Shown here piece by piece: positions 8 through 17,098 of a stretch of 18,801 nt of DNA. The notes beneath the pieces were generated by a model, which searched no databases, was not told the DNA's origin, and saw nothing but the letters and a program-made list of their open reading frames with translations. The position numbers and the translations under genes were made by a program. Origin of the DNA: Nitrospinota bacterium (GTDB taxonomy: Bacteria; 2-12-FULL-45-22; JACOWJ01); contig JACOWJ010000053.1 of the NCBI GenBank assembly GCA_016176845.1, forward strand, positions 1 to 18,801. The letters run 5' to 3'. Each line of letters starts with the position of its first letter. Position 1 is the stretch's first letter.

Positions 8-31
8 AATTTTCAATTTTCAATTTTCAAT
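8..31. repeat. Heptamer tandem repeat AATTTTC
   Basis: Three exact copies of the 7-bp unit AATTTTC (8-14, 15-21, 22-28) followed by a partial AAT, ending four bases before the stop codon of the minus-strand gene. The repeat may continue outside the window. Other spacers in this window hold tandem repeats with the same 7-bp period but different unit sequences. Confidence 0.7.
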
Positions 32-34
32 GGA

Positions 35-1444
35 TTAGCCCCTAACCGGAATGCACTTCCAATAATAGTTGTGGATCCCGCCGGCCTGAAAGAGCTTGCG
101 GAAGCTCATCTGCACCGGCATATCCACCTGGATCTCGTTCGCCTCTCGGTCCGTCATGGCACACAGCATCCGACCTCCGCCCTCGAAGTTGACCACGCTC
201 ACCACCAGAGGCGGATCGACGGAGCCGGCGATATAGTCCATGGCGTAAGTGAATAGCGTGCCCTTTCGGTCTGAGAGTCGCACCGGTTCGAAGTTATCTT
301 TGGCGTGGCACCGCGTGCACACCCGTTGCGGGGGGAATTGGGTGGTGCCGCACTGTTTGCACTTGACGCCATAAAGCTTCAGGTTCTTCTCTCGTTCCCG
401 GAGCAGGGCCGAGGCCGATGGACCCATCATCGGCGGGCGGCGGGCTGCCTCCGAGGGCATGAATTGGCGCCAGCGGATATAGGTATCGTAACTCTTGAGG
501 AGCTTTTTGGAGGCCAGATGGCCCTTCATGCCCATCCGTCCATCCACAGCCTGCCCGACCCGGTCGGTGGCCTGTAGGATGTAAGCATCGCTGCCATCGC
601 CATAGTTGGCCAGCAGCAGCCGGTCACCGGGCTTGGCCTGCTCCAGCGCGGCCACCAGCTGCATCAGGGCGTGGGCTGCTCCCGCGCTGCCCACGGAGCC
701 AAAGAGCGGGTCCTGGACCTGCGTCTTGGGATCGAACCCCAGGGCCCGGACCACCGCGGTGTGAGATCCGGCATCGGGGCCATAAAGGACCACCCTGGCG
801 AAGTCCTTCGGGGTGAGGTTGCATTTCTTCAGGAGGCCCGAGACCGCCTCCTGGATCACCTTCTGGTAACCTTGGGTGATCACGAACCGGTCCTCCCAGG
901 AGCGGACGAAGGCCTCCCCCTCAACCCGCCACACGTCCACGATCTCCCGAGAGATCGCGTGACTGGCCTCGACGCTCGCGGCGACGTCCGCCTCTCCCAC
1001 CAGGAGGGAGACAGCCCCATCCCCCGAGGTCCGATCGAAGCTCCCCTTAGGGGGACCCATGCGGCAGTCGCCGGCGACCACCAAAGCCCGTTTGGCGGAG
1101 CCGCCCTTGATGGCATCCAGGGCCATCCGCAAGGCGGCCGTCCCAGACCTCAATGAGTTGGTGCAGTCCGTGGTGAAGACATCCGGCCGCAAGTCCAGGG
1201 CCGTGGCCACGATCGTGGCCGCCTGTTTCTCCTGATAGGGTGAGGTGGTGGAGGCGAAGAAGAGGGCATCGACCGAACCGCGGTCGATCCCTTTGAGGCA
1301 GTCCAGGGCAGCCGCCACTCCCATGCTCACGCTGTCCTCGTCGAAGTTGGCCACCGCCTTCTCCGCCGAGGAGCCCCAACCGCTCGTCTCCTTTCCGACC
1401 CGGTAGAGGGGTATGTAAGCCCCAGCCGCGATGATCCCAGCCAT
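35..1444 (-). CDS. HMG-CoA synthase-like thiolase-fold protein fused to Zn-ribbon/OB-fold (DUF35) domain
   Basis: The 469-residue protein has two parts. Residues 1 to about 340 resemble HMG-CoA synthase/KAS III-type thiolase-fold enzymes: E72 in a SPYQEK stretch, a TNSLRSGTAAL segment at the usual nucleophile loop (95-105), and SHTAVVRALG with H228. Residues 350-469 are a DUF35 module: a zinc ribbon with C362-x2-C365 and C376-x2-C379, then an OB-fold. In archaea, HMG-CoA synthase, thiolase and a separate DUF35 protein form one complex, and BbsA of anaerobic toluene degradation is a DUF35 partner of a thiolase; here the parts are fused. By eye, the canonical catalytic Cys position (TNAC in HMG-CoA synthases) is Leu97, with Cys94 nearby, so the reaction is uncertain. 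It probably handles an acyl-CoA condensation or cleavage in the cytoplasm. The ATG follows AAGGAGG at good spacing. The only neighbour in the window is the divergent PfkB gene. Confidence 0.85.
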   Translation of the reverse strand: MAGIIAAGAYIPLYRVGKETSGWGSSAEKAVANFDEDSVSMGVAAALDCLKGIDRGSVDALFFASTTSPYQEKQAATIVATALDLRPDVFTTDCTNSLRSGTAALRMALDAIKGGSAKRALVVAGDCRMGPPKGSFDRTSGDGAVSLLVGEADVAASVEASHAISREIVDVWRVEGEAFVRSWEDRFVITQGYQKVIQEAVSGLLKKCNLTPKDFARVVLYGPDAGSHTAVVRALGFDPKTQVQDPLFGSVGSAGAAHALMQLVAALEQAKPGDRLLLANYGDGSDAYILQATDRVGQAVDGRMGMKGHLASKKLLKSYDTYIRWRQFMPSEAARRPPMMGPSASALLREREKNLKLYGVKCKQCGTTQFPPQRVCTRCHAKDNFEPVRLSDRKGTLFTYAMDYIAGSVDPPLVVSVVNFEGGGRMLCAMTDREANEIQVDMPVQMSFRKLFQAGGIHNYYWKCIPVRG

Positions 1445-1648
1445 TCCGTTCCTCCTTCTCTATATCCATTGTCGTTTTGCTGAAACCTGGCTCTTGCTTC
1501 GTAGTACCCATAGAATAAAGTATCCCGGATAACACCTAAGATAAGACAGGCGCTCCCCCAGTCTTGATGGACGCGCAAGGTAGGATCTCTGTGGGAGATC
1601 ATGGAAAAGCAAGCTTCGGGCCTCGGCCGATATCCCATGATGAAGCGG
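1445..1648 (-). other. 5' leader of the HMG-CoA-synthase-like gene
   Basis: About 200 bp lie between the predicted minus-strand promoter and the ATG. I see no convincing gene here. The stretch holds a small hairpin (GATCTC, 5-nt loop, GAGATC) near 1583-1599 and the ribosome binding site next to the start. A leader this long could hold a regulatory structure, but it matches no riboswitch I recognise. Confidence 0.4.
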
Positions 1649-1677
1649 ATGCTAACATTCCTAGGGGGCTTTGTCAA
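1649..1677 (-). promoter_or_regulatory. Sigma-70-type promoter, minus strand
   Basis: On the minus strand, a perfect -35 TTGACA (complement of 1672-1677) is followed by a 17-bp spacer and -10 TAGCAT (complement of 1649-1654, 4/6 to consensus). It points toward the HMG-CoA-synthase-like gene and would give a leader of about 200 nt. Confidence 0.55.
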
Positions 1678-1729
1678 GAGTGATCTGTCCAGATTTTCGG
1701 GGTGAAACCTCATCAAAAAAAACGATATT

Positions 1730-1738
1730 TGATATAAT
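1730..1738 (+). promoter_or_regulatory. Extended -10 promoter upstream of the PfkB kinase
   Basis: TGATATAAT is a perfect -10 hexamer (TATAAT, 1733-1738) with an extended TGn element. The -35 is weak and the spacer is A-rich (1714-1722). Transcription should start near 1745, about 36 nt before the GTG at 1781. It is divergent from the minus-strand promoter at 1649-1677. Confidence 0.6.
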
Positions 1739-1780
1739 GGATGAGGAAAGTTTGCGAGCTGAACGAGGGAGGGGAATGGC

Positions 1781-2704
1781 GTGGTGGGATTGGATAGGAG
1801 TAAGCCCTACGACGTGGTCGGTCTGGGGCTGAATGCCGTGGACTACCTGTGTGTAGTGCCCCATTTTCCCCGGTTCGATTCGAAGGTGAAGATGTTGGAG
1901 TTTAAGCGGGAAGCGGGGGGCCAGGTCGCCACCGCCCTGGTCGCCCTAACGCGCTGGGGCCTGGCCACTTCTTACATCGGCAAGGTGGGGGAGGATGAGC
2001 TGGGCCGGTACACCTGGCAAGAGTTGAAAAAGGAGGGGGTGGATATCACGCATCTGAAGGTGGCCCCAGGGGCGACCTCGCAATTTGCCTTCATCATGGT
2101 GGACCGACAAACGGGCGAGCGAACCATCGTCTGGCACCGGGATGAGAAGACCGACCTTACCCCCCAGGAGGTGAGCCGATCTGCGGTGACGGCCGGCCGG
2201 GTCCTTCATCTGGATGGGCATGAGATCGATGCCGCAATCCAGGCGGCCCGGTGGGCCAGGGAGGAGGGAATCCCCGTGGTCCTGGACATCGATGCCATCC
2301 ACCCCAAGACCGCAGAGCTGATTCGCGCCGCCGATTTTCTGATCGGGGATCGGAATTTCCCGACGGCCTTCACCGGGAATCCCGATCGAGAGGCAGCCCT
2401 GAGAGAGATCGCCTCCTTGGGGCCGCGAGAAGTGGCCATGACCCTGGGAACGGAAGGAGCGATGGCCTTAAGCATCGAAGGGGTCCGGTATCGCCCCGGG
2501 TACAAGGTGAAGGCGGTGGATACCACGGGGGCGGGCGATCTCTTCCATGCGGGCTTCATTTATGGGTTGCTCCAGGGTTGGGGTCTGTCAGAGAGGTTGG
2601 CCTTCGCCAACGCGGTGGCCGCCTTGAAATGCCGGCAACTGGGGGGCCGAGCGGGCATTCCCACCCTGGAGGAGGCTTACCGTTTTATGGGAGAAAATGC
2701 TTGA
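1781..2704 (+). CDS. PfkB/ribokinase-family carbohydrate kinase
   Basis: This 307-residue cytoplasmic kinase has the usual PfkB family length. It transfers the ATP gamma-phosphate to a sugar or nucleoside hydroxyl. The N-terminal beta-strand start (DVVGLGLNAVDYL, 11-23), the substrate-side glycines EAGGQVA (44-50) and the C-terminal signature DTTGAGD (247-253), with catalytic base D253, are all visible. The sequence does not tell me the substrate; ribokinase, fructokinase and other sugar kinases are all possible. The GTG at 1781 follows a strong AGGGAGGGG at 1766-1774. The split transketolase begins 123 bp downstream on the same strand, so a role in sugar-phosphate metabolism is reasonable, but the transketolase pair may have its own promoter. 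Confidence 0.9.
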   Translation: MVGLDRSKPYDVVGLGLNAVDYLCVVPHFPRFDSKVKMLEFKREAGGQVATALVALTRWGLATSYIGKVGEDELGRYTWQELKKEGVDITHLKVAPGATSQFAFIMVDRQTGERTIVWHRDEKTDLTPQEVSRSAVTAGRVLHLDGHEIDAAIQAARWAREEGIPVVLDIDAIHPKTAELIRAADFLIGDRNFPTAFTGNPDREAALREIASLGPREVAMTLGTEGAMALSIEGVRYRPGYKVKAVDTTGAGDLFHAGFIYGLLQGWGLSERLAFANAVAALKCRQLGGRAGIPTLEEAYRFMGENA

Positions 2705-2722
2705 AATGTGGGCATTTTAGGC

Positions 2723-2752
2723 TTGCGCCCGCCTTCATTCTTATGGTATGTT
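2723..2752 (+). promoter_or_regulatory. Candidate promoter of the transketolase operon
   Basis: A weak -35 TTGCGC (2723-2728), an 18-bp spacer and -10 TATGTT (2747-2752) with an extended TGn (TGG, 2744-2746) lie in the 123-bp gap after the PfkB gene. This allows independent transcription of 2828-8315; readthrough from the kinase is also possible. Confidence 0.35.
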
Positions 2753-2827
2753 ATGCCCAGATTGGTTCGGGGGTTCCCGGATGGATCGAGCCTGTGATTG
2801 AGCCTAATCAAGAGGAGAGATGGGTGC

Positions 2828-3649
2828 ATGGAAGAAGATAGGGTCGCGGAGTTGAAGGAAATCGCCCGGCAGGTCCGTATCGACATCCTGAAGATGTTGG
2901 CGAAGGCGGGCTCGGGTCATACGGGGGGCTCTCTCTCTGCCGTGGAGATCGTGACGGCTCTCTACTTTGCCAAGATGCGGCATAACCCTGAGAGGCCCGA
3001 TTGGGAGGAACGGGACAGGTTTGTGCTCTCCAAGGGGCATGGGGTGCCTGTCCTTTATGCGGTGTTGGGCCGATGTGGCTATTTTGACCGGAAGCACTTT
3101 GAGACCTTACGGCAGCTGGGCAGCCTTCTCCAGGGCCATCCTTATAGCGGGTTGACTCCCGGTATCGAGGTCTCCACGGGCTCTCTGGGCCAGGGCCTCT
3201 CCCAGGCCAATGGCATTGCCCTGGCGACCCGGTTGAACCGGAAGGATTGTCGGGTGTATGTCCTCCTGGGCGATGGGGAGTCACAGGAGGGTCTGATCTG
3301 GGAGGCGGCCATGACCTCCGCCCATTACAAGATCGACCACCTCTGTGCCATCACGGATAACAATGGCCTCCAAATCGATGGCCCGGTCAGCAAGGTGATG
3401 GCCGTCGAGCCGATCGCCCGCAAGTGGGAGGCCTTTGGCTGGCATGTCTTGGAGGTGGACGGTCATCGCTTCGAGGAGATCCTGGCCGCCCTGGATTGCG
3501 CGGAAAATACCAAGGGCCGGCCTACCATGATCGTGGCCCATACGGTCAAAGGCAAAGGGGTTTCCTTCATGGAGAACCAGGTCAAATACCATGGGACGGT
3601 CCCCACTCCCCAGGAGTTGGAGCTTGCCCTGAAGGAATTGCAAGTCTGA
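2828..3649 (+). CDS. Transketolase, N-terminal (TPP-binding) subunit
   Basis: This 273-residue protein is the thiamine-diphosphate-binding half of a split transketolase, which moves two-carbon ketol units between sugar phosphates. Visible features are GSGHTGGSLS (28-37) with H31, SKGH (68-71), GSLGQGLSQA (118-127) and the TPP/Mg motif from GDGES (148-152) to DNN (177-179). ATG 2828 is chosen because AGGAGA lies 9 nt upstream at 2813-2818; an in-frame TTG at 2798 would put the ribosome binding site inside the gene. The C-terminal half is the next gene, separated by a 113-bp spacer with a large hairpin. Split transketolases are known in archaea and many anaerobic bacteria. A relative acting on another ketose cannot be excluded. 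Confidence 0.93.
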   Translation: MEEDRVAELKEIARQVRIDILKMLAKAGSGHTGGSLSAVEIVTALYFAKMRHNPERPDWEERDRFVLSKGHGVPVLYAVLGRCGYFDRKHFETLRQLGSLLQGHPYSGLTPGIEVSTGSLGQGLSQANGIALATRLNRKDCRVYVLLGDGESQEGLIWEAAMTSAHYKIDHLCAITDNNGLQIDGPVSKVMAVEPIARKWEAFGWHVLEVDGHRFEEILAALDCAENTKGRPTMIVAHTVKGKGVSFMENQVKYHGTVPTPQELELALKELQV

Positions 3650-3656
3650 TTTAATC

Positions 3657-3740
3657 GTATAGGAATTTCCATTTTTGGGTTTTAAGTTTTAGGTTTTAAG
3701 TTTTAGGAGCTTAAAACCTAAAACTTAAAACCTAAAACTT
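3657..3740 (+). repeat. Heptameric palindromic repeat between the transketolase subunits
   Basis: Heptads GTTTTAA/GTTTTAG alternate from 3679 to 3706, and their complements run from 3711 to 3738. Arms 3684-3707 and 3717-3740 pair perfectly over 24 bp around a 9-nt loop. Just upstream, 3657-3670 reads GTATAGGAATTTCC, the exact reverse complement of the motif at 15548-15561, so this looks like one member of a dispersed repeat family in reverse orientation. The transcript would fold strongly between the two subunit cistrons, leaving the tktC ribosome binding site (3751-3755) free. Confidence 0.8.
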
Positions 3741-3762
3741 ATCTTGAAAAGGAGGAGAAGCT

Positions 3763-4719
3763 GTGGTAGAGATGCTGGGCACCCGGGAGATGTACGGGGA
3801 TACCCTGGTGGAGCTGGGCAGCGAGAATGAGGATATCGTGGTCCTGGATTCCGATCTTTCCAGTTCTACGCGGACTTCCAAGTTTGGAGAGAGGTTTCCC
3901 GAAAGGTTCTTCAACATGGGGGTTTCGGAGCAGGATATGATCGATACGGCCGCCGGGCTGGCGGCCTCTGGCAAGATCCCTTTTGCCAGCACATTCGCCA
4001 TCTTTGCGACCGGCCGGGCCTGGGAAATGATCCGGCAATCCGTCTGTTATCCTAAAAACAATGTCAAGATCGTGGCCACGCATGGAGGGATCACCGTAGG
4101 ACCTGATGGGGCCTCTCACCAGTGCATGGAGGATATCGCGTTGATGCGGGTGCTGCCCAACATGACGGTCATTGTGCCGGCCGATGCCCATGAGGCCAGG
4201 GCAGCCATCCGGTTTGCCGCCAAGAATCGAGGGCCGTTTTACATCCGCCTGGCCCGGGATAAGTTCCCGGTCCTTTACTCCCCCGACCTCGATTTCGAGC
4301 TGGGCCGGGCTCGGGTCCAACGGGTCGGCCGGGAAGCGACCATCATCGCTGCGGGCCTGATGGTTCACGAGGCCCTGAAAGCGATTGACCTCCTGGAAGG
4401 GCAGGGGCTCCGGGTGGGATTGATCAACATGTCCTCCATCAAGCCCCTGGACCGGCAGGCCGTTCTCGATGCGGCCCGTACCACTGGGGCGATCGTGACC
4501 GCCGAAGAGCATTCGATCCTCGGGGGGTTGGGAAGCGCCGTGGCCGAGGTGTTGGCGGAGGAGTGCCCCACTCCGATGCGAAGGATCGGGGTCAGGGACC
4601 TCTTCGGCACCTCGGGGGAGCCGCAAGCGCTGTTGGCCCATTACGGGCTGACCGCCCAGGAGATCGCCCGGGCTGTGGGCGAGGTGATCGGCCTCAAGAC
4701 AGGGGGCGAGAATCGATGA
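3763..4719 (+). CDS. Transketolase, C-terminal subunit
   Basis: This 318-residue protein carries the pyrimidine-binding and C-terminal domains of transketolase and should pair with the N-terminal subunit just upstream. The segment FNMGVSEQDM (50-59) holds the conserved Glu that activates thiamine diphosphate, and SHQCMEDIALMR matches the family substrate/cofactor loop. The C-terminal domain has the usual VVTAEEHSILGGLGSAVAE-type loop. The GTG start at 3763 has GGAGG at 3751-3755 with 7-nt spacing; an ATG lies three codons inside. Its stop overlaps the first possible ATG (4716) of the S41 protease gene, which suggests translational coupling. 1-Deoxyxylulose-5-phosphate synthase halves look similar, but the paired N-subunit reads as transketolase. 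Confidence 0.92.
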   Translation: MVEMLGTREMYGDTLVELGSENEDIVVLDSDLSSSTRTSKFGERFPERFFNMGVSEQDMIDTAAGLAASGKIPFASTFAIFATGRAWEMIRQSVCYPKNNVKIVATHGGITVGPDGASHQCMEDIALMRVLPNMTVIVPADAHEARAAIRFAAKNRGPFYIRLARDKFPVLYSPDLDFELGRARVQRVGREATIIAAGLMVHEALKAIDLLEGQGLRVGLINMSSIKPLDRQAVLDAARTTGAIVTAEEHSILGGLGSAVAEVLAEECPTPMRRIGVRDLFGTSGEPQALLAHYGLTAQEIARAVGEVIGLKTGGENR

Positions 4720-4730
4720 GGAGCAGTAGT

Positions 4731-6101
4731 ATGCAAAGCAATGAGGGGAAGGGGAAATGCCGCTTCAGGTATTGGTGTATCTTAGTCCTGCTCCTGGCCT
4801 TTCTGGGGGGCAATTTTACCGCCCAGAGGGTTCAGGCCAAGGGAGAGACGTACGATGACCTCCGGATCTTCTCCGAGGTCCTTTCCCTGGTCCAGAAGAA
4901 GTATGTCGAGGAGGTCAAGGGTGACGAGCTCGTCCGGGGGGCCATCGCGGGGATGTTGAGGACCTTGGACCCGCACTCTTCCTATATGTCTCCGGATATC
5001 TTCAAAGAGATGCAGGTGGAAACGGAGGGGAGCTTTGGCGGCCTGGGCATCGAGATCACGCTTAAGGACGAACAGCTGACGGTGGTCTCTCCCATCGAGG
5101 GGACTCCCGCCGACGAGGCCGGCATCAAGGCCGGGGACCGTATCTTGAAGGTCAATGGCGAATCGACCCGGGATTTTACCCTGCTGGAGGCCGTCAAGCG
5201 GATGAGAGGTCCCGCCGGTACCAAGGTGATCTTGACCATCCTGCGGGAGGGGTTCACCGAGACCAAAGATTTCGAGCTGACTCGCGCCATCATCAAGATC
5301 AAGAGCGTCAAGTGGAAGATGAGGGACGATGGCATCGGCTATGTCCGGCTCAGCAGCTTCAATAAGACCAGTACCGACGAGCTGGAGAAGTCCCTGGAGG
5401 AGATGGAGAAGAAAAAGATGACCGGCCTCGTCCTGGATCTTAGAAATAACCCGGGAGGGCTGCTCGATCAGGCGGTCAAGGTGACGGAGCTCTTCCTGAA
5501 GAAGGGGGATCTGATCGTCTATACCAAGGGCAGGTCCGACGACCAGAATCTGCGGTTTGTCGCCGGCGGGAAGAAATCTTCTTATCAAGGATTCCCCATG
5601 GTGGTGCTGGTCAACGAGGGCAGCGCCAGCGCTTCGGAGATCGTCTCTGGGGCCCTTCAGGACCTGGGAAGGGCCGTGATCTTGGGGACCAAGACCTTCG
5701 GCAAGGGATCGGTCCAAACCATTATCCCTTTGAGCGATGGGTCGGGGTTGCGTCTGACCACGGCCAAGTATTATACGCCAAAGGGCCGCTCCATTCAGGA
5801 GAAGGGAATCGCGCCCGATATCTTCGTGGAGAACCCTCCGATCGACCGCATGGTCAAGCTGGAGGGACCCAAGGAGGGGCCAAAGCACCCTCAGATCATT
5901 CGGGAGAAGGATCTCCAGCGCCATTTGGGCGGCGAGCCGGAGAAGGAGTCCGATAATCCGACCGGGAAGGAGGTCAAAGACAAACCCGCCAAGGAGGGAG
6001 GGGACGAGGAGAGTGACTTGCAGCTCCAGCGGGCCCATGATCTGTTGAAAGGCCTGACGATCTTTAAGAAGATTCTGGTTACCTCCCTGGCGGAGAAATA
6101 A
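4731..6101 (+). CDS. CtpA-type S41 carboxy-terminal processing protease
   Basis: This is a periplasmic serine protease of 456 residues that trims or degrades envelope proteins from their C-terminus. Basic residues (K7-R13) and a hydrophobic stretch (about 15-27) form a signal peptide or anchor. The PDZ domain is roughly 98-185, with GGLGIEI and GTPADEAGIKAGDRIL. The S41 domain follows, with LDLRNNPGG (235-243), GSASASE (297-303, nucleophile probably S300) and GKGSVQT (324-330, general base K325); the 25-residue Ser-Lys spacing matches the family. The C-terminal tail (about 370-440) is charged. ATG 4731 is preferred because AGGAG at 4719-4723 sits 7 nt upstream; in-frame ATG 4716 overlaps the tktC stop and would add MRSSS. 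An open frame back to 4563 is an overlap artefact. Confidence 0.93.
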   Translation: MQSNEGKGKCRFRYWCILVLLLAFLGGNFTAQRVQAKGETYDDLRIFSEVLSLVQKKYVEEVKGDELVRGAIAGMLRTLDPHSSYMSPDIFKEMQVETEGSFGGLGIEITLKDEQLTVVSPIEGTPADEAGIKAGDRILKVNGESTRDFTLLEAVKRMRGPAGTKVILTILREGFTETKDFELTRAIIKIKSVKWKMRDDGIGYVRLSSFNKTSTDELEKSLEEMEKKKMTGLVLDLRNNPGGLLDQAVKVTELFLKKGDLIVYTKGRSDDQNLRFVAGGKKSSYQGFPMVVLVNEGSASASEIVSGALQDLGRAVILGTKTFGKGSVQTIIPLSDGSGLRLTTAKYYTPKGRSIQEKGIAPDIFVENPPIDRMVKLEGPKEGPKHPQIIREKDLQRHLGGEPEKESDNPTGKEVKDKPAKEGGDEESDLQLQRAHDLLKGLTIFKKILVTSLAEK

Positions 6102-6105
6102 AAAC

Positions 6106-6131
6106 CAATTTCCAATCTTCATTTTACAATT
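6106..6131. repeat. Degenerate heptamer repeat
   Basis: After the protease stop the spacer reads as diverged 7-bp units: CAATTTC, CAATCTT, CATTTTA and CAATT. It runs straight into TTCGCGCGAA (6131-6140), a motif also found in the large palindrome at 17353-17415. It has the same period as the other spacer repeats but is poorly conserved. Confidence 0.45.
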
Positions 6132-6146
6132 CGCGCGAAGCGCGCG

Positions 6147-7253: not shown

Positions 7254-7268
7254 GAAAGCGAAGCCCAT

Positions 7269-8315
7269 ATGCTCATTTTAGGGATAGAGACCTCTTGCGA
7301 TGAGACTGCGGCGGCAGTCGTGGAGGAGGGATTGCGGGTCCGCTCCAACATTGTCTCCTCTCAGTTGGAGCTTCATAGCCCCTATGGGGGCGTAGTACCG
7401 GAGCTGGCTTGCCGCATGCATGTGGAAAATATCCTTCCGGTCATCAGTGAGGCCTTGAGCGAGGGCGGGGTCTCTCTGGAGGAGATCGACCTCATCGCGG
7501 TTACCCGCGGCCCGGGGCTGATTGGGGCCTTGCTGGTGGGACTCTCGACCGCGAAAGGCCTCGCCTACGCGCAGAGAAAGCCGCTGGTCGGGGTGAACCA
7601 TCTGGTGGGCCACATTTACGCGGCCTTCCTGGAACAGCCTTCCGTCCCCTTCCCTTTCCTGGCCCTGGTCGTCTCCGGGGGGCATACGGAGCTTTATCGG
7701 GTCAAGGAGCATGCCCGTTATACCCTCCTGGGGAGCACCCGCGATGATGCGGCGGGAGAGGCCTTTGATAAGGTGGCCAAGATGCTGGACCTGGGCTATC
7801 CGGGAGGGCCCATTATCGATCGGAGTGCCCGGCAGGGGGACCCCCAGGCGATCGACTTTCCCCGCGCGTATCTGGGGAAGGATTCCCTGGACTTCAGCTT
7901 CAGCGGCCTCAAGACGGCGGTTCAGATTTACCTCAAGCGCCATCCGCAGCTCCTCGCCCAGGAGGCAGAAGAGCGTTCCGCCTGGGTGTGTAACGTGGCC
8001 GCCAGCTTCCAGCAGGCCGTAGTGGAGGTGTTGGTGGCCAAGACCATCCAGGCCGCTCAGCGGGAAAAGGTGGCTTCGATCCTCCTGGTGGGCGGTGTTG
8101 CCTGTAACACCCTCCTGCGAAGGGAGTTGCGGGCCAGGGGAGAGGAGATCGGCCTGCCGGTATTTTATCCCTCGCCAGTCCTATGTACGGACAATGCAGC
8201 GATGATCGCCTGCGCGGCTTACTTCCATGGCCTGAAGGAGGGCTTCCCTCCCGCCTGGCCCCCGCACTACCTGGAAATGGATGCGGTGGCCGCGCTGCAG
8301 GTTCCAGAGGGTTAA
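7269..8315 (+). CDS. tsaD: tRNA N6-threonylcarbamoyladenosine transferase TsaD
   Basis: TsaD transfers the threonylcarbamoyl group from threonylcarbamoyl-AMP to A37 of ANN-decoding tRNAs, working with TsaB and TsaE in bacteria. The 348-residue length is typical. Visible motifs are the ASKHA start LGIETSCDETA (4-14), GPGLIGALLVG (81-91), the metal-binding NHLVGH (110-115, H111 and H115), VSGGHTEL, GEAFDKVAKMLDLGYPGGP and GGVACNTLLR. ATG 7269 follows an AGGAAAG ribosome binding site and lies 15 bp after the deacetylase stop. It is the last gene of the plus-strand run. The TsaB and TsaE partners are not in this window. Confidence 0.97.
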   Translation: MLILGIETSCDETAAAVVEEGLRVRSNIVSSQLELHSPYGGVVPELACRMHVENILPVISEALSEGGVSLEEIDLIAVTRGPGLIGALLVGLSTAKGLAYAQRKPLVGVNHLVGHIYAAFLEQPSVPFPFLALVVSGGHTELYRVKEHARYTLLGSTRDDAAGEAFDKVAKMLDLGYPGGPIIDRSARQGDPQAIDFPRAYLGKDSLDFSFSGLKTAVQIYLKRHPQLLAQEAEERSAWVCNVAASFQQAVVEVLVAKTIQAAQREKVASILLVGGVACNTLLRRELRARGEEIGLPVFYPSPVLCTDNAAMIACAAYFHGLKEGFPPAWPPHYLEMDAVAALQVPEG

Positions 8316-8374
8316 ACGGTTCTCCCATCCAATCCCTTCAATCGCCCCTGCTCCCTGATGGGATAAAACCTCCG

Positions 8375-8490
8375 CATTTTCGTGTTAATTGGTCATGCGC
8401 TTTACGGCACCCAAGCCCATGAAAATGGCTTACGACACTCCCTCTCCCCTTGGGGAGAGGGTTGGGGTGAGGGGACATTTTCGTACTAAT
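8375..8490. repeat. GC-rich palindrome flanked by 15-bp direct repeats
   Basis: In the convergent spacer, CATTTTCGTGTTAAT (8375-8389) and CATTTTCGTACTAAT (8476-8490) are direct repeats matching at 13 of 15 positions. Between them, CCTCTCCCC (8441-8449) and GGGGAGAGG (8452-8460) form a perfect hairpin, followed by GTTGGGGTGAGGGG, a string recurrent in many bacterial genomes. The hairpin could help end transcription from both sides, but it has no U-tract. The whole looks like a small inserted repeat. Confidence 0.5.
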
Positions 8491-8509
8491 GTCGAATGAA
8501 TCTCCATGC

Positions 8510-9111: not shown

Positions 9112-9834
9112 CCAGGCGATCTGGAGATAATTGCCGATCATGGCGGCCGAGATGGCCCGGGCGTTGTAAGGGTAAGCCCACACATCGATTATGGTAAAGA
9201 GGATCAGGGCCTCGATGAAGAGCTCCATGAGGGGGGCATCGCTCAGGAAAGGGAGAAACTCGGGGTCGTCCAGCAGCACGCTGAAGGCCAGAAAGGAGAT
9301 CTCCCCGGAGTAGAGCGTTCCCACCAGGAGGTGGCTCTCGATCACCTTGGTGACCAGGAGGGCCTCCTCGGGGGAGAGGGCGATTCCCTCCAGCAGGCCC
9401 AACTCCCGAACCAGTTGAGCTCCCTTTTCGGGGTGATGCTCCTTATCCTCCAGCCTTCCCATATCGTGCAGCCAGAGGATCAGAGGCATGAGCGACGGGT
9501 TGGCCTGGACCAGGGAAGCGGATAAGCGGCAGACCGGCTCCAACTCGGTATCGGAGAGGCCGCTCTCGGGGAAGGAGCGGGACTGGATCCGGTTGTGGAC
9601 GGCGATCGCGTTGAAGGTATGGGCCAGGGTGCGGCCGAACTCTGCGGGATCGGATTGGGCCCCCTTGACCCATAGCTCCCGCAATGGCGGGAAGAAGTGG
9701 CTCAATTGTTCGCATTCTTCGCTCGCTTCCCACCTTCTCTCCCTGGCCCATCCGGTTTGATTGACCCATTCCAGGGTGATCCCCTGGCCAAACGACAGAA
9801 GCTTCTCCAACGGTTCGTGAGTGAGGGATGACAT
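8989..9834 (-). pseudogene. HD-domain protein, N-terminal part, frameshifted
   Basis: From ATG at 9834 (upstream AAGGAAAGGAAA) the frame gives about 243 convincing residues, then about 38 out-of-frame residues to a stop at 8989. HD-superfamily metal-site candidates are H80, the pair H123-D124 (LWLHDMGR), H133/H134 (KEHHPEKG), H168 (VIESHLL) and possibly D217 (IIDVWAY). Such proteins are often phosphohydrolases, but the substrate is unknown. The break is at AAAAA 9107-9111: adding one A joins it to the downstream frame, giving about 441 residues. It lies 35 bp after the HAD phosphatase in the same operon. It could be a sequencing or assembly slip, a real pseudogene, or less likely programmed frameshifting. 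The frame is open upstream to 10074, but that part lies inside the HAD gene and is not real. Confidence 0.75.
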
Positions 9835-9869
9835 CGCTGGTTTCCTTTCCTTAACGTAATGACGGTTTG

Positions 9870-10565
9870 TCAGGCCTGCCTCGCGTAAACCTCTGCCAGG
9901 AAGGCCGGATAGTCGGCCAGACTGGAGAATAGGTAATCCGGGAGATAAGGGCGCAGCTCGTCCAGGCTGTAACGGCCCGTGGCTACGGCGACGGTGGAGA
10001 CCTGGGCTGCCTTCCCGCTGAGGATATCCAGGGGGGTATCCCCGATGATATAGACCTCCTCGCGGCCCAGGCATCTTCCCAGAAGCCTCTCCGCCTTTCG
10101 AATGGCGATCTTCACCAGCTCCGGTCGCTCTTCCGAGTCCGAGCCATAGCCCCCCAACCGAAAATAGGGATAGATTCCCGCCCTTTCCAATTTGATCCGG
10201 GCCCCCTGCTCGATATTGCCGGTGGCGAGCCCCACCAGGGCATCCTCTCGCGCGGCCAGCTCCGCCAGCAGCAGTTCGATGCCCGGCATGATCCGGAAGT
10301 TCGGGGAGCTCTGCACCTCCCCCTCGAGGAAGGCCAGGTAGCTCTCCATGACCTGCCGGACTTGTTCAGGGCCGGGGCTTAAGCCCAGGTTCAGCTGAAG
10401 GACCTCTCGGATGATCCAGGGATCCGTTTTCCCATCGAGAATGAGCCCTTTCAGGGCATTCTCTACCGCGTAGCGGGCTCGAAAGGCGCGCACTAACGCA
10501 CGACTGCCCGCCCCTCCGGTGTTGATCAGGGTTCCATCCACATCGAATAAGAAGACCTTTTCCAT
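9870..10565 (-). CDS. HAD-superfamily hydrolase (phosphoglycolate phosphatase-like)
   Basis: This 231-residue cytoplasmic phosphatase has the HAD core motifs: motif I FDVDGTL (7-13, nucleophile D8, acid D10), motif II LATGN, and motif IV IIGDTPLDI carrying the metal-binding Asp. The helical cap between motifs I and II is the C1 type of the phosphoglycolate phosphatase/beta-phosphoglucomutase group. The substrate is not determined by sequence. ATG 10565 is chosen because a good promoter (10628-10656) predicts transcription from about 10621; the frame is open to 10667, but starts there would lie upstream of the transcript. It is followed after 35 bp by the broken HD-domain gene, so the two were probably an operon of hydrolases. 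Confidence 0.88.
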   Translation of the reverse strand: MEKVFLFDVDGTLINTGGAGSRALVRAFRARYAVENALKGLILDGKTDPWIIREVLQLNLGLSPGPEQVRQVMESYLAFLEGEVQSSPNFRIMPGIELLLAELAAREDALVGLATGNIEQGARIKLERAGIYPYFRLGGYGSDSEERPELVKIAIRKAERLLGRCLGREEVYIIGDTPLDILSGKAAQVSTVAVATGRYSLDELRPYLPDYLFSSLADYPAFLAEVYARQA

Positions 10566-10627
10566 GATCTCAGCGGTCCTTTCCATTTCATCGGCCGTTT
10601 TTGGCAGCGGGTGGGGTTTCCTATCCA

Positions 10628-10656
10628 TCCATATCACAAAATGAGCGCCCTGTAAA
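10628..10656 (-). promoter_or_regulatory. Promoter of the HAD/HD operon, minus strand
   Basis: On the minus strand, -35 TTTACA (complement of 10651-10656), a 17-bp spacer and -10 TATGGA (complement of 10628-10633) with extended TGA. The transcript should start near 10621, about 55 nt before ATG 10565. Confidence 0.5.
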
Positions 10657-10962
10657 CCTCCACACACATTGCTTTATTCGGGAAGAGCAATTCGAACGAT
10701 TCCCCAGAGGGATCACCCGCGGGAACCTCCGCATTCGCCTTCTGAGCCGGGGTCTCCGGGTTAAAACCCGGCAAATATTTCCGCATGGAATAACAAATCC
10801 GTAATTTGTAATGACTGTTTCGTTATTTTCTTTCGAATAATTGGCGGATTTCCACCCCTGAAAAAGGACATCCCGCCTTTATTTCCAGTGCTTCTCAGCC
10901 GCGGATGGATTTTGGCCCTTTTTTTGCTTACCTACCCTATTGACTCGAAATATGGACTTTCG
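10657..10962. other. Intergenic region between HAD operon and pilin operon
   Basis: I see no gene in this stretch between the divergent HAD and pilin genes. It holds a small perfect hairpin, CCGGGTT/AACCCGG with a 2-nt loop (10756-10771), and an AT-rich segment. TTGACT at 10940-10945 could serve as a -35, but only weak -10 candidates lie 16-18 bp downstream (such as TAGGCT at 10964-10969). Confidence 0.4.
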
Positions 10963-10988
10963 ATAGGCTTTGGCATTTTCACGGTAAA
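10963..10988 (+). repeat. 26-bp block shared with the BcrB-like gene's upstream region (copy 1)
   Basis: The core TTGGCATTTTCACGGTAAA (10970-10988) occurs exactly, in reverse complement, at 17241-17259. With the preceding ATAGGC and one variable base, the match reaches 25 of 26 positions. It lies about 85 bp upstream of the PilX-like start, so it could be an operator or the edge of a dispersed repeat. Confidence 0.7.
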
Positions 10989-11072
10989 ATTTCCCGCTAA
11001 AGTTCCTTCGATCCACTCCGATGAAGCAGGTACGGGAAGCTTTCCAAATGTGTGGAGAGTGGAGGGGTGAGG

Positions 11073-12407
11073 ATGAAAAAGAGGATGATTCCCGGAACCG
11101 ACCCAGAGGGGTCTGCTCTCATCGCCGTTCTCATGATGATGCTCGCCCTGTTCTTCCTCTCGTCCATCGTGATGGACACCACTAGCAGCTATCTGAACCA
11201 ATGGGTTACGCCTCAGGTGCGCACCTCCCGGGCCCTCTACGTGGCCGAAGGGGGTGCCCACGTTGCCCTGCAATGGTTGAGGGACTCCTATGGGCTTCCC
11301 CGCAACAGCTCTTGTTCCCCTTCCCCTTGCTTCTCCAGCACCACCGCGGGGCAAATCGTTTACAATAACCAACCCGTTGTCCTGTCGGCCTCCACCGACC
11401 CCGACCTGAATCACCCAGACTCCTACACGGATATGGAGGGGACCGTGCGGTCGGGGGTCATCGCTGGCTTTCAAAGCAACCTCACCAACCAGAGCCTGGG
11501 CAGTGGGACCTTCAACGTGGAGGCGACCCTGCTGGGGACCAATCCCCAGCGGTGGCGCATCGCCTCCAACGGCACCGTCTCGAGCGTGTCGAAGACGGTG
11601 ACCGTTCAGACCCGCCAGAACCCCTTTAACCCCCCTTATGCCCTGGTGACGGGCGGTGACCTGGCGATCGGTGGCAACTCAAAGGTCCAGGGAAGCTGTG
11701 GCAATGCCCATTCCAATGCGAATCTTAGCGTCGGTAACTCAATTACCGTTGCCGGGACCGCCACGAGCACGGGGAGCTGCAGCGGCTGTAGCGGGCACCC
11801 CGATTGGGGCGGCGGCCGGCCAAAAGCGAAGATCCCGGCAGTGATCCCGTCGGACTTCCAACAGTATGCCATCTATGAGCTCCGGTCGGATGGGAAGATT
11901 TACTACGGGCAGGCATCGGCCACTCCAGGGGTGGAGATCACCAGCGGTCCCCTCAAGGATCAGTGGTCCTATTCCAGCGCCACGGAGGTATGGAAGCTCA
12001 GCGGCAACACCGCTGCCGACGGGGCCTTTTACGCCGAGGGGAAAATTGAGGTCTCCGGAAGCCCCGGCGACGCCACCACTCCCTGGCAGGCCACGCTCAT
12101 CGCCACCGGGGATATCAAGATCTCCGGCAGCCCGAGGCTGACGCAGTACACCCAGAACCTGCTCATGGTGGCCGGCCAGGACCTGACCATCAGCGGCGAT
12201 CCCCAGACCGACCCTGTAGGAGGGGTCATGGCGGCCAAGAATCAGCTGAAGATCTCCGGCAATCCCCAGCTCAACGGGTTCGTCTTTTCTAAAAGCGCGG
12301 AGATCTCTTCGGTCACGATTGGTAACCCGACCATCACCTATAACTGCCAGCTAGGCAGCAACCCATTTCCGGGAGACCTGGCCATGGTTAGCTGGATGGA
12401 GAATTAG
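11073..12407 (+). CDS. pilX: PilX-like type IV pilus assembly protein
   Basis: This 444-residue pilin-like protein is probably a minor pilin or pilus-assembly factor at the cell envelope. The N-terminus is basic, then EGSALIAVLMMMLALFF (12-28) forms the hydrophobic helix, followed by SRALYVAEGGAHVALQWL, as in PilX N-domains. A cleavage site after G13 is possible; the usual Glu at +5 is absent (A18), as in GspK/PilX types. Four SG-P motifs, VSGSP, ISGSP, ISGDP and ISGNP, recur at residues 327, 350, 373 and 394 (spacings 23, 23, 21), which suggests a beta-solenoid C-terminus. Three closely spaced Cys (CSGC and C in GSCGN) lie mid-protein. ATG 11073 has GGAGG at 11061-11065, 7 nt away; GTG 11052 is less likely. 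It leads a pilX-pilV-pilW group. Confidence 0.8.
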   Translation: MKKRMIPGTDPEGSALIAVLMMMLALFFLSSIVMDTTSSYLNQWVTPQVRTSRALYVAEGGAHVALQWLRDSYGLPRNSSCSPSPCFSSTTAGQIVYNNQPVVLSASTDPDLNHPDSYTDMEGTVRSGVIAGFQSNLTNQSLGSGTFNVEATLLGTNPQRWRIASNGTVSSVSKTVTVQTRQNPFNPPYALVTGGDLAIGGNSKVQGSCGNAHSNANLSVGNSITVAGTATSTGSCSGCSGHPDWGGGRPKAKIPAVIPSDFQQYAIYELRSDGKIYYGQASATPGVEITSGPLKDQWSYSSATEVWKLSGNTAADGAFYAEGKIEVSGSPGDATTPWQATLIATGDIKISGSPRLTQYTQNLLMVAGQDLTISGDPQTDPVGGVMAAKNQLKISGNPQLNGFVFSKSAEISSVTIGNPTITYNCQLGSNPFPGDLAMVSWMEN

Positions 12408-12408
12408 C

Positions 12409-12846
12409 ATGGTAACAACGGAGTGGATCGTCGCCTCCCCCCGGATTCCTCCGGCCAAGAGACTCCTTCTGAGAGGCTTTCGGATCGAGGCTAAGGCGAG
12501 AGCAGGCCAGCAGCAGGGGTTTACCATGATGGAGACCCTGGTTGCCCTCGTGCTCTTCACGGTGGTCCTGCTCGGCACGCTCGGCGGAGCAGCGACCGTC
12601 GCCTGGATCAATGCCCAGGGGGGAAAGACCTCTCGGGCCATGCTCTTGGCCCAGGAGAGGATGGAGCAGCTCAAGGCGGGTGGCTACGCCGCCCTGGCCT
12701 CCGGGAGCAACACCGTGGGAGGCTTCTCCCGGAGCTGGACGGTAGCCACCGGACCCCAGGCCAACACGCGTCGGGTGGATGTAACCGTCACCTGGACGGT
12801 CCCCCGATCGGGGAGCATCACCCTTACAATGGTCATGAGCCAGTAA
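12409..12846 (+). CDS. pilV: PilV-like minor pilin (type IV pilus modification protein)
   Basis: This 145-residue prepilin has a class III-type N-terminal signal: cleavage between G37 and F38 in QQQG-FTMMETLVALVLF, with Glu at mature position 5 (E42) and a hydrophobic helix to about residue 62. After it comes LLAQERMEQLK, typical of PilV. The 37-residue leader is unusually long, but I found no closer in-frame ATG, GTG or TTG before the cleavage site. The ATG lies one base after the PilX-like stop, with GGAG nearby, so translation is probably coupled. PilV helps prime pilus assembly with PilW and PilX. Its mature part is small and beta-rich (WTVATGPQANTRRVDVTVTW). Confidence 0.85.
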   Translation: MVTTEWIVASPRIPPAKRLLLRGFRIEAKARAGQQQGFTMMETLVALVLFTVVLLGTLGGAATVAWINAQGGKTSRAMLLAQERMEQLKAGGYAALASGSNTVGGFSRSWTVATGPQANTRRVDVTVTWTVPRSGSITLTMVMSQ

Positions 12847-12857
12847 GAAGTGGGGCG

Positions 12858-13649
12858 ATGGAGGAGAGACAACCGCAGGAGAGAGGATCTACCCTCGCCG
12901 AGGTCTTCATCTCGTTGGCGATCACAGGGATCATCCTGGCAGCCGTTTACGCCCTGTTTATCAGCCAGAACAAGAGCTATATTGCCCAGCAGGACGTCAT
13001 CCAGCTTCTCCAGGATTCGCAGAACGCCACGAACGTCCTGGCGAAGGACCTCCGGATGGCCGGCTATGGCGTTCCCGTGGCGACATATCCGGGAAATCCA
13101 TGTCTGGGAAATCCGGACAATTCATGTCGGATCACAGCAGCCAGCGCGACCAGCCTGACGACTAACGGGAACTTCCGCCGGGTCAGTCCCACCCTGCGCG
13201 AGTTTGCCGCCAGCGGGCAAGCGACCCTGCAGGTTCAGAGCATCACCGGCTTTGCCGTCGGCGATACGATTTGGATCACCAACGGGACCAACTCGGAGCC
13301 GAAGACGATCTCCGGGATCACCGGAGGCGGCTCCCCCTCCCTGACGGTAAATGCAAACCTCTCCAACTCCTATAATGCCGGGAGCACCGTCCACCAGAGC
13401 CGGACCATCACTTACACGTACGCCAATGGGACCCTTTCCCGAACCATGGGCGGCGTCCAGCAGACCCTGGTGCAGAACGTCACGGCCTTCTCCTTCACGT
13501 ACACCTATTCGGGGGCCGTGAGCCTGACGAACATCCGGCAGATCATGGCATCCCTGACGGTCCAGACAGCCAAAGCCCTCCCAGATACAGGCAAGAAGCG
13601 GACGGTCACCTTCCAGACGATCGTAGCCCCCCAGAACCTGGCGTTTTGA
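12858..13649 (+). CDS. pilW: PilW-like minor pilin
   Basis: The 263-residue prepilin has a short leader MEERQPQERG cleaved after G10, then STLAEVFISLAITGIILAAVYALF, with Glu at mature position 5 (E15) and one membrane helix. The following SQNKSYIAQQDVIQLLQDSQNATNVLAKDLRMAGYG matches PilW, where the conserved element is an aligned helix ending in RMAGYG. The remainder is beta-rich and Ser/Thr-rich, as expected for an exposed minor pilin. It starts 11 nt after the PilV stop with only a weak GGGG ribosome binding site, so it depends on the upstream genes. No FimU/GspH, PilY1 or PilE gene follows in the window, so the rest of the pilus machinery must be elsewhere. Confidence 0.85.
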   Translation: MEERQPQERGSTLAEVFISLAITGIILAAVYALFISQNKSYIAQQDVIQLLQDSQNATNVLAKDLRMAGYGVPVATYPGNPCLGNPDNSCRITAASATSLTTNGNFRRVSPTLREFAASGQATLQVQSITGFAVGDTIWITNGTNSEPKTISGITGGGSPSLTVNANLSNSYNAGSTVHQSRTITYTYANGTLSRTMGGVQQTLVQNVTAFSFTYTYSGAVSLTNIRQIMASLTVQTAKALPDTGKKRTVTFQTIVAPQNLAF

Positions 13650-13679
13650 TTTGCGTAGGCTGCTCTCCTCTTGTTGGCA

Positions 13680-13708
13680 TTGCCAGCTCCTTCCGGATGT
13701 GATATGGT
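13680..13708 (+). promoter_or_regulatory. Promoter upstream of the GDPD gene
   Basis: -35 TTGCCA (13680-13685), a 17-bp spacer and -10 TATGGT (13703-13708) with extended TGA (13700-13702). Transcription would start near 13715, about 120 nt before the chosen start. A strong ribosome-binding-like GAGGAGGAAG follows at 13716-13725 but has no ATG, GTG or TTG in range. Confidence 0.45.
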
Positions 13709-13836
13709 CTACAATTGAGGAGGAAGTCTTAAAGAAATTTTTTCCCGGCCGCTCTCCACATCTTCCAAAGCTTGCTGGAAATGGTCCGGACGGCGTCGTC
13801 GTGAGGGGAGCGCGGGAAGTTACCAGGGGGCTGAAG

Positions 13837-14760
13837 ATGAGGAACCTCGTTCCTACCCTCTTTAGATCTTGGCTGAACGGGCGCTTTCGATGCATCTCCT
13901 CTGAAAAGAGGCTTCCCTTTCGACTGAAGAGGCCCAAGGTCATCGTCCACCGAGGAGACACCACGGCCGGAGCCCCGGAGAACTCCTTGTCAGCCTTCCG
14001 CCACGGAGTCGAGGTGTCGGGCGCCCATGGGTTCGAGTGCGATATTCGGCGGGCGATGGATGGTGCCCTGGTGATTCTGCATGACCCCAAGGTCGGCCGG
14101 ACGGCGGCTCCTACGGCCAGATCTCCCGGAAAGAAACGTTGGGTCAGGGAGCTGACGGGAAAGGAATTGCGCACCTTTCGGCTTAAGCTGCCCCTGCGCG
14201 AAACGATCCCTTCGTTGGAGGAGGTTCTGGACTACGTTGGGTCGCGGGAAGGCCTCATCTGTTACCTCGAGTTCAAGGAGGGAAACCTGGAGTACATCCG
14301 GGCGATCATCGAGACGGTTCGGCGATACCAACTCCAGGATAGGGTCCTCTTCATCAGCTTTGATGCCTCCACCCTGGCCCTGGCCAAGGAGATGGCCCCA
14401 GAGATCCCAGGAGAGGTCATTGTCGTCAATATCTTTCATCGACTGGTGGATGTCGCCCGGGCAGCCCGGGCCGATGGGGTGGCCATAGCCGTGCTCACCT
14501 TTCGATTCGTGCGGTCCTGGCTCCAGGCCGAGGTGCAAAAGGCCCATGAGGCGGGGCTGTGGGTAAACGCGGGGGTCGTCAACTCCCTCCATTTCCTGCC
14601 ATGGCTCCTGGCCAGCGGAATTGATGGCATCTTCACCGATGATCCGCGGCTAATCCTGCAAGGTTTGCAAGAACTGGTCGGCGAAGGCGAGGCTGGTCCT
14701 TCCCCAGTGCCTCTGATATTACGGCCAGAGGCTGATATCCGGCCGGATTTTGATCCGTAA
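13837..14760 (+). CDS. Glycerophosphodiester phosphodiesterase family protein
   Basis: The enzyme hydrolyses glycerophosphodiesters to sn-glycerol 3-phosphate and an alcohol, recycling phospholipid head groups. From ATG 13837 it has 307 residues. GDPD motifs are clear: VHRGD (37-41, H38-R39), ENSLSAF (48-54), FECDIRRAMDG (66-76, E67 and D69), LHDP (81-84, second catalytic H82), LEFKEG and the C-terminal GIDGIFTDDP. No signal peptide is obvious, so it may be cytoplasmic. ATG 13837 follows AGGGGG by 6 nt. The frame is open to 13651, but the extra residues look unlike the family; GTG 13801 is another option. It lies between the pilin genes and the MocA-like gene, with its own candidate promoter. 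Confidence 0.88.
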   Translation: MRNLVPTLFRSWLNGRFRCISSEKRLPFRLKRPKVIVHRGDTTAGAPENSLSAFRHGVEVSGAHGFECDIRRAMDGALVILHDPKVGRTAAPTARSPGKKRWVRELTGKELRTFRLKLPLRETIPSLEEVLDYVGSREGLICYLEFKEGNLEYIRAIIETVRRYQLQDRVLFISFDASTLALAKEMAPEIPGEVIVVNIFHRLVDVARAARADGVAIAVLTFRFVRSWLQAEVQKAHEAGLWVNAGVVNSLHFLPWLLASGIDGIFTDDPRLILQGLQELVGEGEAGPSPVPLILRPEADIRPDFDP

Positions 14761-14784
14761 GTCCTTAACGCTTGCTGACCTCAT

Positions 14785-14799
14785 TGAATGATTCATTCA
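14785..14799. promoter_or_regulatory. Small palindrome before the MocA-like gene
   Basis: TGAATG-ATT-CATTCA is a 15-bp palindrome ending 11 bp before ATG 14811 and just before the ribosome binding site GGGAGAGGGAG. It could be an operator or a small RNA hairpin affecting translation. The evidence is symmetry and position only. Confidence 0.25.
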
Positions 14800-14810
14800 G
14801 GGAGAGGGAG

Positions 14811-15452
14811 ATGGAGAGAACTTGGGTTTCGGCCCTCATCTTGGGAGCTGGACAGGCCAGGAGGATGGGGCTCACCAAACAGCTTCTCCCCTTCGGGCGA
14901 ACCACCTTGCTGGGACAAGTGCTGGGAAACGTCCTCGCCTCGCAGGTTCAGGAGACGGTTCTGATCCTGGGCCACGAGGCCGGGGCGATCCTTCGGGCTT
15001 TGGGGCTTAACCATCCTGATCCAGAAGAAGGGCTCAACCGCTCCGATAAAATTGGGTTCAAGGTCCGGATCAACCCGGAGTACGCGGAGGGCCTCAGCTC
15101 CTCCATCCGGTTGGGGGTGTCGTCCCTCGCCCCTCAGGCCGCGGCCGTGATGATCGTGCTGGGAGATCAGCCTTTGATCGATCCTCTGGTGATCGATTTT
15201 CTCATCGCCACCTTCAGGGCGAGCGGCCGCGGGATCGTTGCTCCATTCTATGGGGGTAGAAGGGGCCACCCGATCCTGCTGCATCTGAAGTACCGGGAAT
15301 CCATGCTCGGCCTCCGGGGGGATGTGGGCTGTCGGGAGATCCTGTCCACCTGTTCCGAGGATCTTTTGGAGGTCGAAGTGGACTGTCCGGGAGTGGTCCA
15401 GGATGTGGATACCCTGGAGGAGTACCGGCGTTGCCGCGAGAGCCTAAAGTAA
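14811..15452 (+). CDS. MocA-like nucleotidyltransferase (molybdenum cofactor cytidylyltransferase family)
   Basis: This 213-residue cytoplasmic enzyme belongs to the MobA/MocA NTP-transferase group. Visible motifs are the nucleotide-binding LGAGQARRMGLTKQLL (11-26), the metal-binding GDQPLID (118-124), the substrate loop GRRGHPILL (149-157) and DVDTLEEY (198-205). MocA joins CMP from CTP to molybdopterin, giving the cytosine dinucleotide cofactor used by xanthine-oxidase-family enzymes. MobA uses GTP instead; the YqeC-like partner just downstream favours MocA. Uncharacterised relatives in selenium-dependent hydroxylase clusters are equally possible. ATG 14811 follows GGGAGAGGGAG; an in-frame TTG at 14772 is weaker. 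It lies 50 bp after the GDPD gene and may share its transcript. Confidence 0.82.
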   Translation: MERTWVSALILGAGQARRMGLTKQLLPFGRTTLLGQVLGNVLASQVQETVLILGHEAGAILRALGLNHPDPEEGLNRSDKIGFKVRINPEYAEGLSSSIRLGVSSLAPQAAAVMIVLGDQPLIDPLVIDFLIATFRASGRGIVAPFYGGRRGHPILLHLKYRESMLGLRGDVGCREILSTCSEDLLEVEVDCPGVVQDVDTLEEYRRCRESLK

Positions 15453-15453
15453 A

Positions 15454-15640
15454 TTAGGGATTAGGGATTAGGGATTAGGGATTAGGGGCTAGTAAGAAAG
15501 AAGAGCTTTTGCTAATCCCTAGCCCCTAGTCCCTAGCCCCTAAAAAAGGAAATTCCTATACCTTACAAGTTAGCTCTCAGCTCGTAGCTCATAGCTCATA
15601 GAGGGCTGAGCTCCGAGCTGAGAAAGGGAATTCCTATACG
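15454..15640. repeat. Two adjacent heptameric hairpin elements with shared end motif
   Basis: The 213-bp spacer before the YqeC-like gene holds two repeat modules. Module 1: about four tandem heptads of the TTAGGGA type (15454-15492), an imperfect complementary arm (15511-15541), then GGAAATTCCTATAC (15548-15561). Module 2: heptads AGCTCGT/AGCTCAT (about 15581-15600) in a hairpin whose arms TCTCAGCTCGTAGCTCA (15575-15591) and 15607-15623 pair at all but one position, then GGGAATTCCTATAC (15626-15639). The end motifs differ at one base, and its reverse complement is also at 3657-3670. The spacer carries no gene. Confidence 0.75.
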
Positions 15641-15665
15641 CTCAAGTTAGCGCGGGGAGGCCCTG

Positions 15666-16901: not shown

Positions 16902-16923
16902 CAAGGGTTTCAAACAAATCTCT

Positions 16924-16991: not shown

Positions 16992-17098
16992 CAATAGACA
17001 TTGGTTATTTCCGATAATGTCTAATGGGAAAGCCTGCCGGGAATATTCCGGATTCCTGAATTTAACATGGTCTATCCCCTGTCGGCAACTAAAAAATC

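Follow-up and report, generated by a model that had tools for sequence, protein, structure and literature searches.

Heptamer-armed intergenic palindromes in a Nitrospinota genome and their likely kinship with elements carrying the S23p gene

The stretch considered here (the window) comprises all 18,801 nt of the sequence taken from contig JACOWJ010000053.1 of a Nitrospinota bacterium (GCA_016176845.1), and several of its intergenic spacers hold arrays of short tandem repeats which differ in unit sequence but share a period of 7 bp. These repeats are the arms of miniature intergenic palindromes built of heptamers, and most likely part of a wider class of heptad-armed elements, the full form of which carries the 23S rRNA intervening-sequence protein S23p, with a G-rich arm on its 5' side and a C-rich one on its 3' side. 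The period, the hairpin layout and the intergenic position are real and strong. S23p genes are flanked by heptad arms of varying unit sequence in plasmids, in metagenomic contigs and in two genomes of Desulfobacterales, the unit changing from locus to locus; the copies in the window would be members of this class that lack an open reading frame (ORF). A general link between S23p and heptamers is not made in any paper found in the open-licence literature.

S23p genes between heptad arms

Genome G049 contains a palindrome of AGTCAGA units that encloses an ORF, and the same site in genome G046, which is ~94% identical to G049 in shared regions, lacks this ORF. The enclosed ORF was identified as S23p (PF05635, E 2e-37; PDB 2gsc, the solved S23p structure from Xanthomonas campestris (PMC4990558)), with a weak match to bAvd. 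A second, shorter S23p is present in G046, inside the same TAACTRCTCAG...heptamer ends as the ORF-less palindromes of that genome.

Inverted arms together with a period-7 tract were found at 13 of 26 S23p ORFs, these being plasmid copies (mostly from cyanobacteria) and the copies in G046 and G049, versus 2 of 275 control ORFs (p 5e-14). The arm units of these copies are diverse (e.g., AGTCAGG, AACAGGG, AAAAGGG, TAGGGTG and GTTCAAG), and the plasmids with heptamer arms around S23p genes include those of Nostoc, Aulosira and Trichormus, so that the likeness to cyanobacterial heptameric repeats proposed in the initial annotation of the window was apt. In metagenomic contigs from IMG/VR, which served as an independent set, inverted arms were present at 21 of 30 non-identical S23p loci and at 7 of 154 controls (p 5e-15), and the best period among 5-10 was 7 in all but one, with many units. 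The 5' arm has more G than C in 32 of 34 S23p cases, which matches the polarity of the ORF-less families T, F and P described below; the median arm length is 26.5 nt, as compared to 25-36 nt in families T, F, S and C. Among viral contigs, an alignment search returned 36 S23p matches and a single-protein search returned 0, and no S23p was found in phage records.

Several S23p loci showed features of separate interest. A minority have period-8 arms or flanks, e.g., AAGGAACT and AGGAGATA. Some S23p genes are located inside CRISPR-Cas operons, in the cas6-cas4 interval in Anabaena and Pseudanabaena and in the cmr2-cmr3 interval in Picosynechococcus. In the Riemerella record NZ_CP081930, S23p adjoins sufB; this record is labelled a plasmid but is probably a chromosomal fragment, because it contains ileS, lepA and suf genes.

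Period 7 and the unit families of the genome

The assembly comprises 1.53 Mb in 61 contigs and is 68% complete, and stretches of 0.41 Mb, 728 kb or 1.31 Mb (86%) of it were sampled. In the 1.31 Mb sample 376 period-7 tracts were detected, while none of the other periods between 4 and 13 gave more than 35. Exact period-7 runs of at least 12 matches numbered 62 in 0.41 Mb, versus 0.5 in shuffled sequence, and runs of this kind at periods that are not multiples of 7 numbered at most 3 each. In a 0.41 Mb sample, 112 of 124 tracts were noncoding though the DNA is 83% coding, an enrichment of ~45-fold, and several of the 12 remaining tracts are located at gene ends. Both the genome-wide excess of period 7 and its concentration outside genes, which the initial annotation had put forward as checks, are thus borne out. 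The 14-mer ATTAGGGATTAGGG has 29+20 overlapping matches in the genome. No general period-7 excess was seen in 16 other bacterial genomes sampled, single genomes excepted; the two Desulfobacterales genomes, and other metagenome-assembled genomes (MAGs) that bear the tail described below, do have such an excess, with different units.

Five unit families were recognized in the genome: T (YTAGGGR), F (TTTTARG), S (AGCTCRT), C (CAATTTT/GCATTTT) and P (ACAGGGR). Arm polarity is fixed within each family across all 103 inverted pairs of four families (T 39:0, F 34:0, S 9:0, C 21:0). The G-rich arm comes first in the ORF-less T, F and P elements, while C is nearly neutral and S is opposite. A search of 728 kb with the family T loop pattern yielded 27 matches, of which some 25 are heptamer-armed T elements; among the elements found in this way the 5' arm holds 2 to 8 units. 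Nested and adjacent element copies were also seen. The families represent copies of elements scattered through the genome, whose loops and ends are conserved, and not independent local expansions.

The initial annotation had suggested that a copying mechanism or a structure might be what is conserved. Local copying between arms did not hold up, as the two arms of one locus are no more alike than arms of the same family from different loci (permutation p = 0.73, 0.997, 0.19 and 0.07); local templating is therefore not supported, and copies inherit their arms. Family C pairs with long loops (220-280 bp) were considered as decayed S23p elements and rejected, since in at least 2 of the 4 inspected the loop contains other, nested dispersed repeats.

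Tail, target and caps

A common 3' tail, AAAAWGGAAATTCCTATRCGAT, terminates many copies of families T and F and some of families S and P. The tail is followed by a YAARTTA consensus; T elements have YAARTTA at their left end as well, and the sequence to the left of it is not conserved. The logos of tail and target are alike whether drawn from the genome itself (104 tails in 728 kb) or from other genomes (74 tails). The core of the tail has 58 matches in its own genome and 0 when read backwards. Elsewhere the tail is rare, occurring in 1 genome of a broad sample of 385 others. Among 84,980 species, the tail pattern was located in 60 stretches from 28 MAGs of several phyla, where ~2 would be expected by chance (calculated by hand from the pattern length). 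In these other MAGs, from Desulfobacterota, Latescibacterota, Planctomycetota and others, the tail follows unrelated hairpin cargoes and has the same YAARTTA target. A single match, without element context, was found in viral contigs, and a literature search for the tail sequence returned no relevant paper. Both T and S elements occur in a MAG labelled Chloroflexi, NC_groundwater_1425. Identity to the focal genome is 80-93% for the T element of this MAG and 77% for a nearby stretch; on these identities the MAG may contain misbinned contigs of a relative.

Ends of this kind bring to mind REPINs (hairpin-forming doublets of repetitive extragenic palindromes) or miniature inverted-repeat transposable elements (MITEs), moved by a Y1 transposase of the REP-associated (RAYT) or IS200/IS605-like type that acts on the hairpin, in which case the heptamers would be incidental filler and S23p an occasional passenger. 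IS200/IS605 elements have asymmetric ends and a terminus that resembles the target, and the asymmetric ends here, with a terminus resembling the YAARTTA target, fit that logic. The extragenic hairpin doublets also match the description of REPINs (PMC3116915). However, no Y1_Tnp domain was found in the focal assembly (68% complete) or in the tail-bearing genomes G047 and G048, and no transposase ORF recurs beside the tails among 466 ORFs, those that do recur resembling ordinary host genes. No target-site duplications were seen in the copies inspected, and the YAARTTA consensus is on one side. Transposition by this route appears improbable as the explanation of the palindromes.

Family C is without the tail, and its arms are capped on the outside by short GNA-triloop hairpins. 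The stems of these caps vary between copies yet stay paired, with pairs 2-5 being 79-95% complementary versus 25-31% at control sites. About 43 caps in 728 kb comprise 25 distinct stems and show strong covariation, which is what hairpins that act in single-stranded DNA form should display. Family C and the tail may have arisen separately.

Turnover between close relatives

At orthologous intergenic sites, G046 and G049 have different palindromes, often composed of different heptamers, and a GTTCACG array common to both differs in unit number. Whole heptamers are gained and lost within a copy, most simply by slippage. Taken with the five families of one genome and the elements of several phyla, these differences agree with the initial annotation in that the unit changes while period and palindromic layout are kept; unit turnover among close strains had been one of its proposed checks. 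Two further dispersed repeats of ~154 and 212 bp, in stretch L252 at 12755-12934 and 7753-7964, have well over ten copies each in G049; they are present in G046 and absent at the orthologous G049 sites, and are useful for mapping insertion boundaries.

The changes in unit number in situ would suit an account in which the arrays are ordinary heptanucleotide simple sequence repeats (SSRs), where slippage favours 7-nt units and arrays arise independently in noncoding DNA, with no element and no protein involved. According to an earlier survey, as cited in PMC4679880 and PMC4692102, heptanucleotides outnumber the other classes of long SSR in most prokaryotic genomes, which was ascribed to the polymerase contact length. 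Slippage alone does not yield a polarity of 103:0, conserved loops and ends, or dispersed near-identical copies, and this account is considered unlikely. The orthologous sites also bear on whether the hairpins are regulatory or terminate transcription and are maintained by host selection. The hairpins are stable and located between genes, and a regulatory role has been proposed for heptamer elements in Geobacter and Beggiatoaceae. The elements have no preference for convergent gene pairs, however (6 of 77 versus 25 of 227 intergenic gaps), and unrelated palindromes at orthologous sites of close relatives are unexpected for conserved regulation, which makes such a role very improbable as the origin of the pattern.

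Repeats of the window

The features of the window are listed in Table 1. The initial annotation had described five arrays with different units. Four of these are clear by both Tandem Repeats Finder (TRF) and a period-7 scorer, and the fifth, at 6106-6131, proved to be a degenerate copy of the family at 8-31 (CAATTTT), leaving four unit families. This array was absent from the TRF calls and has 12 of 18 period-7 matches (composition-shuffle p = 0.002). The array at 8-31 is at the contig end, position 1 of the window being the contig start, and its partner arm may have been cut off.

Table 1. Heptamer elements and associated motifs in the window
Feature	Position	Strand	Basis or remark
Family C arm, (AATTTTC)n, x3.4 exact	8-31	+	TRF and period-7 scorer; one arm only
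Tail common to several families, AAAATGGAAATTCCTATAC on minus strand, then target-like TTAAATC	3657-3675	-	
Family F palindrome with inverted arms of TTTTARG units at 3679-3705 and 3712-3738, ~30-bp stem	3673-3741	-	TRF, folding
Degenerate family C arm, CAATTTC CAATCTT CATTTTA CAATT	6105-6131	+	Period-7 matches versus composition shuffles
GC-rich cap hairpin, CGCGC-GAA-GCGCG, GNA triloop	6132-6144	+	Typical family C outer end
Left terminal motif YAARTTA (TAAATTA)	15450-15456	+	Overlaps stop codon of upstream gene
Family T 5' G-rich arm, TTAGGGA x5 exact	15453-15487	+	TRF and period-7 scorer
Conserved family T loop, CTAGTAAGAAAGAAGAGCTTTTGCTA	15489-15514	+	
Family T 3' C-rich arm	15512-15543	+	Pairs with 15453-15487; overlooked in the initial annotation
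Shared 3' tail, T element	15544-15561	+	
Family S element: CAAGTTA end, AGCTCAT array (15571-15601) and inverted partner	15566-15623	+	
Shared 3' tail, S element, GAAAGGGAATTCCTATAC	15622-15639	+	Then CAAGTTA at 15643-15649

With its tail, the family F element extends over about 3657-3747. Folding as single-stranded DNA confirmed that at least three of the loci form hairpins, as had been noted: the region 3673-3741 forms a 30-bp stem with z = -7.1 versus shuffles, and 15453-15543 and 15571-15623 gave z = -4.4 and z = -4.2, respectively. Folding of 6104-6145 is confined to the GC-rich cap, and no fold was obtained for 8-31. No Rfam model matched within the window.

Other dispersed palindromic repeats are present at 8407-8485, 16790-17000 and 17350-17415; these comprise CCCTCTCCCC...GGGGAGAGGG, the CATTCCCGCGAAAGCGGG and GCAATGAC types, and a TTCGCGCCCTTCGCGG palindrome. 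A tRNA-Sec called by ARAGORN at 7865-7941 lies inside tsaD and was taken as a false positive.

Weight of the S23p link and proposed mechanism

Several observations count against membership of the window's repeats in an S23p class or against the wider link. A purpose-built profile detected no S23p in the 1.31 Mb examined, which is 86% of the focal assembly, so that the link to the window's own families is by architecture only. No Y1 transposase or reverse transcriptase (RVT_1), nor any other mobilising enzyme, was found in the assembly, which is 68% complete. Among the plasmid S23p copies, three have their peak at period 8 and several are without inverted arms. Many S23p hosts are rich in heptamers in any case, with 44 of 154 control ORFs near a period-7 tract, and some S23p loci are interrelated, which lowers their effective number below the count. 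The tail-less, capped ends of family C are a further point of this kind.

If the palindromes do belong to the S23p class, an element would be read through along with the genes beside it, and a stem would form in its RNA or single strand. Selection would then act on the fold and on a 7-nt spacing equal to the repeat unit of a binding partner, for which the ring-shaped pentameric S23p would be the leading candidate, and movement would occur in trans. On this proposal, the 7 nt would correspond to a protein footprint. A more far-reaching version, conceivable but on balance doubtful, holds that S23p, which forms a pentameric ring of four-helix bundles and is related to the Avd protein of diversity-generating retroelements, binds the arms so that each protomer contacts one 7-nt unit, and thereby sets the period, and that S23p-bound hairpins spread with S23p in cis or in trans. 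The letters of the arms would be free as long as spacing and stem are kept, and the heptanucleotide repeats of bacteria, including the short tandemly repeated repetitive (STRR) sequences of cyanobacteria, would largely be the remains of one mobile class.

Two puzzles would be joined in this way, namely the dominance of 7-base units among long bacterial simple repeats and the role of the widespread S23p ("four helix bundle") protein. Should S23p elements and heptamer palindromes form one class, the period would become a feature of a protein-nucleic acid machine, open to testing in vitro, and a large part of the intergenic repeats of bacteria would go back to a common origin.

Comparison with known systems

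The closest described arrangement is that of the 23S rRNA intervening sequences with S23p, e.g., in Coxiella burnetii, in which GACAGAT heptamers are located just upstream of S23p and vary between strains (PMC4990558). These share with the present elements a palindromic stem, S23p between the arms in the full form, and variable-number heptamers beside the gene. The known intervening sequences are inside 23S rRNA, whereas the elements described here, including the window copies, are located between protein genes, are mostly ORF-less and have many heptamer units. Intergenic heptamers have also been reported in Xanthomonas (GGGAATC), with 70-75 convergent inverted pairs that resemble the paired arms of family T, and in Nostoc (GGGGA(T/C)T); unlike the present case, these were described as one unit per genome and studied as G-quadruplexes, with no link to S23p drawn (PMC4692102). 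The heptanucleotide elements of Geobacter metallireducens are likewise multicopy, with four or five tandem heptamers, but have one consensus per class, also occur within genes, and were proposed to be regulator-binding sites or regulatory RNAs (PMC2700814).

REPINs and MITEs are, like the elements of the window, short dispersed extragenic hairpins whose stems vary while pairing is kept; the present elements differ in their tandem-heptamer arms and in the association of several unrelated arm families with one tail, and no RAYT was found in the 68% complete assembly. Cyanobacterial STRR sequences are heptameric and intergenic, occur as several unit families per genome, and have small dispersed repeats embedded in them. 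The Nitrospinota elements share with them the intergenic tandem heptamers and the multiple unit families, and differ in having inverted arms of fixed polarity, in the defined tail and target of families T and F, and in their occurrence in a different and poorly sampled phylum.

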